Below, one piece after another: positions 20,688 through 54,714 of a stretch of 64,000 nt of DNA. Each line of letters opens with the position of its first letter. Within the stretch, counting starts at the first letter, position 1. Source of the stretch: Fibrobacter sp. (lineage in GTDB: Bacteria > Fibrobacterota > Fibrobacteria > Fibrobacterales > Fibrobacteraceae); NCBI GenBank assembly GCA_024398965.1, contig JAKSIF010000002.1, forward strand, positions 124,001 to 188,000, written 5' to 3'. Made by a program: the position numbers and the translations under genes. The notes below the pieces were generated by a model. The model did no database searches. It was given only the letters and a program-made list of their open reading frames with translations, and was not told the DNA's origin.

Positions 20688-21665
20688 ATGAATTTTAATG
20701 CCGAAAAAACGCCTCTCTCAGAAATCAAGGCTTTAATTGCCCAAAAGGAACTGTTCATTTTTGACCTGGACGGTACCATGTTCAACAGCCTGGGGGATTT
20801 GGCTCCGGCAGTGAATTACGCCTTAAGGCAGTTCGGTATTCAAGAAATTTCCAAGGACAACGTGAGAAGTTGCATCGGGAACGGCTCCAGGAATCTGATT
20901 CGCAGGTCCGTGGCATCGGGCATTATGTACGGCGCAGGCAAGACCGCCGGCGAACCCATAGCAAGTGAGAATCGTCCCCTCCCGTGTCATCCTGAGCGGA
21001 GCGTAGCGGAGTCGATAAATGAAACTAGGAACTTTAGTTCCTTAGTTGAATTAGGTTCGAAGGAGCAGGATCTAGCCATCGACGAAATCAAGCATCTAGA
21101 CGTCCGCGATAAGGAAGCCGTCGCCGCCATTTTGGAAGGCGCTGGCTTTGACGAAGCCAAGGTTGACGAGGTCCTGAAAACTTACTCCGGCTATTACTGG
21201 GAACACTGCACCGAAGAAACGGTGCCTTACGAAGGTGTCCTGGAATTTATCGACTGGATTTGCGAAAGTAACGGCCGCGACGAGGGTGCCGGCAATTCGT
21301 CGGGTCGCAAGATCGCAGCCATGCTGACCAACAAGCCTGTTTTACCTGCAAAAAAGATCTTGGAAAAATTTGGACTGCTGAGCAGGACCGCGCAGAACAA
21401 CAAGATTTCCTACTACCTTTGCGGCGACACCACACCGGAACGCAAGCCTGGCCCCGGCGGCATCTACGCCATTTTGAAGGAGCTGAATGTCGCTCCCGAA
21501 AAGGCCGTGATGATCGGCGACGACACTCCGGATGTGATGGCAGCCAAGAACGCCGGCATCGACAGCATTATTTGCCTGGAAGGTTTTGGCCGTCCCGAAA
21601 ATCTTTTGCCCTTAGAGCCCAAATACACCATCAGGCATATCAAGGATTTGATGAAGTTGGTTTAA
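20688..21665 (+). CDS. HAD-superfamily phosphatase (phosphoglycolate phosphatase-like) with inserted repeat
   Basis: A 325-residue HAD hydrolase. Motif I is FDLDGTMFNS (about 26-35), motif II MLTNKP, the motif III lysine lies in ERKPGPGG, and motif IV is MIGDDTPDVMAAKNAG, all intact. It resembles phosphoglycolate phosphatase Gph, but members usually have about 220 residues. The extra length lies mainly in the cap domain. Residues about 100-128 (beginning CHPERSVAES) are the translation of an 87-bp palindromic repeat at 20986-21072, inserted in frame. The protein may still fold, since the insertion sits in the variable cap region. ATG 20688 matches the family N-terminus. Confidence 0.85.
   Translation: MNFNAEKTPLSEIKALIAQKELFIFDLDGTMFNSLGDLAPAVNYALRQFGIQEISKDNVRSCIGNGSRNLIRRSVASGIMYGAGKTAGEPIASENRPLPCHPERSVAESINETRNFSSLVELGSKEQDLAIDEIKHLDVRDKEAVAAILEGAGFDEAKVDEVLKTYSGYYWEHCTEETVPYEGVLEFIDWICESNGRDEGAGNSSGRKIAAMLTNKPVLPAKKILEKFGLLSRTAQNNKISYYLCGDTTPERKPGPGGIYAILKELNVAPEKAVMIGDDTPDVMAAKNAGIDSIICLEGFGRPENLLPLEPKYTIRHIKDLMKLV
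20986..21072. repeat. palindromic dispersed repeat inside the HAD phosphatase gene
   Basis: It begins GTCATCCTGAGCGGAGCG and ends TTAGGTTCGAAGGAGCAGGA. The centre is a hairpin, AACTAGGAACT / AGTTCCTTAGTT. The ends match the intergenic copy at 54504-54586 (opposite orientation) almost base for base, while the hairpin centre differs. The copy is in frame and free of stop codons. Confidence 0.85.
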
Positions 21666-54503: not shown

Positions 54504-54586
54504 AGATCCTGCTCCTTCGAACCTAAGAATTGTAGGGCAACAAGTTGCCGACAATTCTATATCGTCGCTTCGCTCCTCAGGATGAC
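54504..54586 (-). repeat. intergenic copy of the dispersed palindromic repeat
   Basis: Read on the minus strand it begins GTCATCCTGAGGAGCGAAGC and ends TTAGGTTCGAAGGAGCAGGA, like the copy inside the HAD phosphatase gene. Its central hairpin is AGAATTGTCGGCAAC / TTGCCCTACAATTCT, different in sequence but equivalent in structure. An unrelated hairpin, CGGCTCATATTAATGAGCCG, lies 50 bp further on. Confidence 0.85.
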
Positions 54587-54714
54587 GCAGGAAGGTTCAA
54601 GGAGATGACGCGCAGGGACTACGTGAGCTACAAGCGGCTCATATTAATGAGCCGTGGTAGCGAGAGTGAGTGAAGAACAGGAGGTTTTTCACCCCACGTA
54701 CTGAACGAACGGTC

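Follow-up and report, generated by a model that had tools for sequence, protein, structure and literature searches.

Palindromic elements carried in frame within genes have so far been regarded as a curiosity, known from Rickettsia and few other organisms. Two families from R. conorii, RPE-4 and RPE-6, are included together with the neisserial dRS3 in the class of CGTC-tagged REPs by a 2013 survey (Di Nocera et al., PMC3733652). According to that survey, these REPs lack a dedicated enzyme. Families 1-4 of this class have a stem of 8-9 bp, a loop of 4-5 nt and a CCA-like tail. In another described system, the REPtron, palindromes with a GTAG tag flank the gene of a Y1 transposase (RAYT). Here we report the analysis of a composite GTCAT-tagged palindromic element lying within a phosphatase gene of Fibrobacter sp., in a stretch of 64,000 nucleotides (the window), and of the small GIY-YIG nuclease genes that are bracketed by palindromes with the same tag.

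The Fibrobacter elements resemble the CGTC-tagged REPs in several respects. The copies read start with a (C/T)GTCAT tag, they are small dispersed palindromes with AT complementary at stem positions 1-2 (GTC-AT...AT-CT), and some of them are in frame within genes, while none flanks a RAYT gene. However, they are longer and form a two-layer hairpin, with an outer stem of 5-6 bp, an inner stem of mostly 4-5 bp and, in the long form, a nested hairpin; the tail is CTAG-like, and they fail the criteria for families 1-4. They also belong to a phylum outside the list in PMC3733652, and the linked GIY-YIG nuclease is not mentioned there. Since the tag and the start of the stem are common to both and the stem length, loop and tail differ, we consider these elements relatives of the CGTC-tagged class and not members of its four families.

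Like the Rickettsia palindromic elements, with which a preliminary description of the window had compared them, they are palindromes placed in frame in proteins of unrelated kinds, where they are read as additional loops. This comparison holds in concept; the organism and sequence differ, and in Fibrobacter the same loops hold different families across species and are empty in some of them. The tie to the RPE families is made through PMC3733652 only, without comparison to Rickettsia sequence. As in REPtrons, a small enzyme gene is bracketed by palindromes matching dispersed non-autonomous copies, but the enzyme is a GIY-YIG nuclease instead of an HUH transposase and the tag is GTCAT instead of GTAG, and the defining criteria of GTAG REPs and RAYTs are not met. 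The nuclease shares with GIY-YIG homing endonucleases a catalytic domain with conserved Tyr, Gly, Arg, His and Glu; unlike them, it extends barely beyond this domain (~95 residues), is flanked by REPs and, as far as seen, is not intron-encoded. No link between GIY-YIG proteins and REPs was found in the open-access literature searched, with subscription journals and preprints outside its scope: the GIY-YIG superfamily survey (PMC1564403) has no word starting with 'palindrom', and the RepRanger paper (PMC12306157) mentions no nuclease. Given this scope, the association is regarded as new only provisionally.

The features of the window considered below are as follows.

20688..21665, plus strand: HAD-superfamily phosphatase gene bearing the insertion, phosphoglycolate-phosphatase-like, 325 codons.
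20974..21084, plus strand: net insertion of ~111 nt (37 codons) relative to element-free orthologues; boundaries approximate.
20986..21073, plus strand: composite GTCAT-tagged palindromic element, long form, with the translation CHPERSVAESINETRNFSSLVELGSKEQD.
21016..21060, plus strand: nested second hairpin (the centre) with TCGA at both sides; the REP that sister genome G010 holds in RlmL lacks the corresponding part.
54504..54587, minus strand: long-form copy between genes, whose centre differs (AGAATTGTCGGCAACTTGTTGCCCTACAATTCT).

The element at 20986-21073 runs GTCATCCTGAGCGG...AGCAGGATCT and lies within a single open frame. The surrounding ORF matched Pfam HAD_2 (3e-25), and the motifs FDLDGT, TNKP and GDDTPD of this phosphatase are all intact on either side of the insertion; the NCBIfam equivalog scores were under the cut-off, and thus the exact substrate is not fixed. 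Orthologues free of the insertion were found in the genus, the closest being 93% identical across the C-terminal part, and the junction reads GEPI-EGKSRAE-HLDV in G010 versus GEPI-ASENRPLP-CHPERSVAESINETRNFSSLVELGSKEQD-LAIDEIK-HLDV in the source genome. Leaving aside what moves the element, this gene almost certainly records an in-frame mobile insertion. The AlphaFold model of the phosphatase has a pLDDT above 90 at 139 core residues and below 50 over residues 90-128, which correspond to the insertion and linker, and therefore the insert is most likely a disordered surface loop of the cap domain on an intact core. Translation of the longer phosphatase with its insert is inferred from the open frame, and its expression is inferred too. 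In several species, other loops of the HAD orthologues (L044-L047), located before the TNKP and CGDT motifs, are also expanded by low-complexity or tandem segments such as RDEGAGNSSGR and NGNSAG.

Most claims of the preliminary description of this gene were confirmed. It had placed an 87-bp repeat at 20986-21072 in the open phosphatase frame, without stop or frameshift and with all HAD catalytic motifs kept; this held, the single frame having 325 codons and the element extending to 21073 if the last T of GGATCT is counted. Its estimate of ~29 added residues held only in part, as the net gain relative to orthologues is larger (111 nt, 37 codons). The proposed alignment with orthologues revealed homologs without the segment, and the proposed search of this and related genomes revealed copies elsewhere in the genome and the genus.

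Dispersal of the palindrome is far above chance. Exact GTCATCCTGAGCG cores occur 50 times in the 3.59-Mb source genome (151 contigs), compared with 0 for the reversed-pattern control, and the degenerate pattern GTCATYCYGRR has 210 genome matches versus 10 when reversed. Eight places in the genome match the long form over its 3' half, and the pattern for this half is present in 55 of the 80 genomes of the genus. RlmL holds two 87-nt copies nearly identical to the one in the HAD gene, and similar copies lie between genes. No Rfam family matched the repeats in the 64-kb window.

The short form of the element is GTC-ATCCT-GAGC-(inner stem)-GTCGA-AGGAT-CT, with ATCCT/AGGAT as the outer stem. The long form adds a ~45-nt hairpin after GTCGA, at the end of which TCGA is repeated; the TCGA pair around this hairpin is a candidate for a target duplication. 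Among inner stems with a short loop, we identified nine different left arms, each perfectly complementary to its right arm, and pairing was 100% for real arms versus 57% with arms swapped. The distinct centres number 49, and 34 of these, belonging to one class, keep five inner pairs 97-100% paired with 3-5 pair types each. The element is kept as a hairpin, as shown by covariation between copies of both the inner stem and the nested hairpin. Folding of single copies was unremarkable for most of them (RNA fold z-scores of -0.3 to -1.7), and a repeat finder with default seeds detected no inverted repeat in either window copy; the evidence for a conserved hairpin thus rests on covariation between copies.

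These results also bear on the remaining claims of the preliminary description. A second, intergenic copy, given as 54504-54586, was confirmed on the minus strand and extends to 54587, and membership in a mobile or dispersed family held, as judged from the exact GTCATCCTGAGCG cores and the distribution in the genus. The statement that only the hairpin centre differs failed in part, because the window copies differ in the left arm as well (GCGGAGCGTAGCGGAGTCGA versus GGAGCGAAGCGACGA). Selection of the centre for structure is supported by compensated variation between copies and not by single-copy folding. The composite structure and the tie to a GIY-YIG nuclease had been missed.

The open GATAAATGAAACT centre has three copies in the source genome, all of them within genes (one in HAD, two in RlmL). 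The GATATAGAATTG centre places TAG in the CHPER frame, and most such copies in the source genome are intergenic. Purifying selection against stops would produce this split and is a possible explanation. At the RlmL site, the DNA flanking the REP is identical on both sides in genomes G000 and G010, as read, and the extra nested hairpin is present in G000 only, for a net difference of 51 nt (17 codons), G010 having the short form. Hence, either the long form originated by nested insertion or G010 lost the nested hairpin.

Context was read for 49 distinct core copies, and by a mechanical rule ~19 of them fall within long open frames, although some of these may be spurious, such as an antisense frame of 147 codons (L017). 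Among conserved enzymes, clear insertions were observed in LpxD, a NUDIX hydrolase and a UvrA-like ATPase, as well as in RlmL, which has two long copies, and in a glycosyltransferase, which has three; the genes of all five are supported by Pfam. Comparison of HAD, NUDIX, RlmL and the glycosyltransferase with their orthologues shows in-frame insertion into otherwise conserved proteins. The NUDIX loop is empty in G010 and G035 (CAYGFPQSLTYLG) and is filled by CHPERNAAGMESKDLA in G000 and G039, by EIPGQARDDKA in G023 and by another family in G007. The RlmL loop holds the long form CHPERSGAESINETRNFSSLVELGSKEQNLE in G000, the short form of the same REP (CHPERSGAESKDLE) in G010, VIASEAKQS (of the GTCATTGCGAGC type) in G024 and G020, and an HSEERSDEES-type segment in G039 and G023; it is empty in G007. 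Two of these families also flank nuclease genes: the EIPGQARDDKA family flanks the GIY-YIG gene of G023, and GTCATTGCGAGC elements flank those of G024 and G020. Empty sites and the occupation of the same loops by differing families are shown directly by these comparisons, and repeated in-frame insertion of several families into tolerant loops is their simplest reading. The genus therefore presents several element families repeatedly entering the same enzyme loops, and the process of insertion can be followed, since empty sites and a nested intermediate are preserved between sister species.

In FISUMP-type lipoproteins (Fib_succ_major), trimmed 26-bp copies were found in poly-serine linkers, where they are read in another frame (VILSDSEGSS). 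At six loci (L005, L006, L014, L023, L027 and L196), the VILSDSEGSS segments adjoin VIPGTDPGSS and VIPSEVEGSS from other REP families, and these linkers are partly REP-built. In the RlmL of G010 (L208), a tandem expansion KLSTKGYVTLEEGTTDRVLDDCR resembles another translated repeat family.

Two copies of the element are located immediately upstream of a GIY-YIG ORF in the source genome, and a second small GIY-YIG gene there has elements of a subfamily of its own on both sides (GTCATCCTGGAG...GATAGGATCC). Genes of this small GIY-YIG family are bracketed throughout the genus by GTCAT elements with differing stems. The nuclease is a standalone protein (PF01541, E 4.6e-18) in which Y7, Y18, G20, R28, H32, E65 and N84 are invariant in 12 sequences. 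A scan of 84,980 species genomes yielded 80 further nuclease loci from Clostridia, Bacteroidota, Proteobacteria, Bifidobacterium, Chloroflexi, Nostoc, Patescibacteria and others, including a Fibrobacter succinogenes relative, which, like the occurrence of a FISUMP lipoprotein, agrees with the assignment of the source to Fibrobacter. Beyond the genus, members of the family have distinct stems, for instance GTCATTCCCGCGAAGGCGGGAATCC. The loci were picked by protein similarity and not by their flanks; a single seed alignment was used, and the set does not extend to remote branches of the family.

A 12-mer common to both 300-nt flanks was found at 55 of 77 loci, compared with 88 of 1620 control placements in the same loci. 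GTCAT occurs within 200 nt on both sides of the gene at 65 of the 77 loci (7.8 expected), and TGTCAT lies at most 200 nt from the gene at 67 of them, whereas GTAG on both sides showed no excess in the same 77 loci (24 versus 24.9 expected). Palindromic GTCAT elements were identified on both sides at 70 of 107 loci versus 10 of 1015 control placements (Fisher p ~3e-72; the loci are not fully independent), and such bracketing was absent from all 35 control genes (0/10 other GIY-YIG genes, 0/25 HAD loci). Small standalone GIY-YIG genes are associated with bracketing GTCAT palindromes across many phyla. The association has exceptions, as 14 of the 107 loci have no palindromic GTCAT element nearby, and the elements closest to the gene form an inverted pair about it (GTCAT..gene..ATGAC) at only 33 of the 70 bracketed loci. 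When mapped on the nuclease tree, the stem type of the elements requires 28 changes, compared with a mean of 46.4 after shuffling (0 of 200 shuffles as low); this clustering may reflect common descent or joint transfer of the gene and its flanks.

Within the phylum, at least four GTCATYSYGAGCG cores are present in some genome of 6 of the 11 genera with a strong nuclease match (E up to 1e-25), versus 2 of the 30 others (hand count; Fisher p 0.002). Genome-by-genome co-occurrence is only moderate, partly because other genera use other stems. In genome G118 (100% complete, 9 contigs), 79 GTCATYSYGAGCG cores are present but no nuclease of the family was detected at 1e-12, which argues against strict dependence on the nuclease, and several other genomes likewise contain GTCATYSYGAGCG cores without a detected family nuclease. 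Recent loss of the nuclease or another mobiliser are possible in G118 (L252-L254, L327-L329).

In our reading of these observations, a mobile palindrome of composite, REP-like structure, seen as the 87-bp segment, was inserted in frame in a cap-domain loop of the phosphatase and is tolerated there because this loop is flexible. Copies would spread as small non-autonomous elements and stay in genes only if open and in frame. The small GIY-YIG nuclease may recognise the folded hairpin and nick near the GTCAT tag, and repair of the break would seed copies of the element at new sites, much as proposed for RAYTs with GTAG REPs; as the case of G118 suggests, elements may outlive their enzyme. The balance of evidence tips modestly towards mobilisation of the hairpins by the small standalone GIY-YIG nuclease, with the movement, the cleavage point and the copying route all inferred. 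In a bolder reading, which we could as easily see fail as succeed, standalone GIY-YIG nucleases would be dedicated mobilisers of GTCAT/CGTC-tagged REPs. These would constitute a second large bacterial REP class, parallel to the RAYT/GTAG REPs across phyla but with an unrelated enzyme and perhaps covering the rickettsial in-frame elements, and the system would continually add translated segments to proteins.

Several other explanations can be considered. The main rival, which remains possible, is that the GIY-YIG gene is a selfish homing-type passenger landing on or cutting REPs, which are themselves moved otherwise or only by replication slippage and recombination. In its favor, the GIY-YIG domain is characteristic of homing endonucleases (PMC1564403), REPs persist without the nuclease gene, and some nuclease genes lie amid arrays of numerous REPs, which could be landing zones. 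However, where the flanks were read, whole palindromes and not two halves are present on both sides, which is mild evidence against a passenger, and the stem type varies by genome yet matches the REPs within the genes of that genome. Y1 transposases of the IS200/IS605 type (RAYTs), the proposed movers of GTAG REPs, are unlikely to move these elements; the source genome has two Y1_Tnp genes, but neither has GTCAT elements on both sides, and the nuclease loci show no enrichment of GTAG. That the phosphatase is a pseudogene tolerating the insert by chance is very unlikely: expression of the gene is only inferred, but its open frame retains every catalytic motif, and on both sides of the insertion it remains 80-93% identical to the nearest orthologues. 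An ordinary lineage-specific, non-mobile loop expansion, as suggested by the low-complexity variation in other loops of the same orthologues, is all but excluded by the dispersed near-identical copies in HAD and RlmL and the similar intergenic ones. Mobilisation by the GIY-YIG nuclease, our preferred reading, makes its association with the palindromes a testable answer to the question raised in 2013 of what moves CGTC-tagged REPs.

Additional observations were made at individual nuclease loci. The YhbQ-type GIY-YIG genes at L068 and L069 have a few 12-mers common to both flanks, without palindromic GTCAT elements. Another YhbQ-like GIY-YIG gene (L248, G060:C27:23900-25600) is flanked by a different palindrome, TGGTGGCTTCGAGAGCCTCAGCCACCG, and possibly another nuclease subfamily owns its repeat type. 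In Bifidobacterium oedipodis (L106), the element upstream of the GIY-YIG gene, GTCATCCTGAGCGGAGCGTAGCGGAGTCGA, has 30 nt identical to the window copy, and this identity across phyla suggests a possible transfer of the nuclease together with its element.
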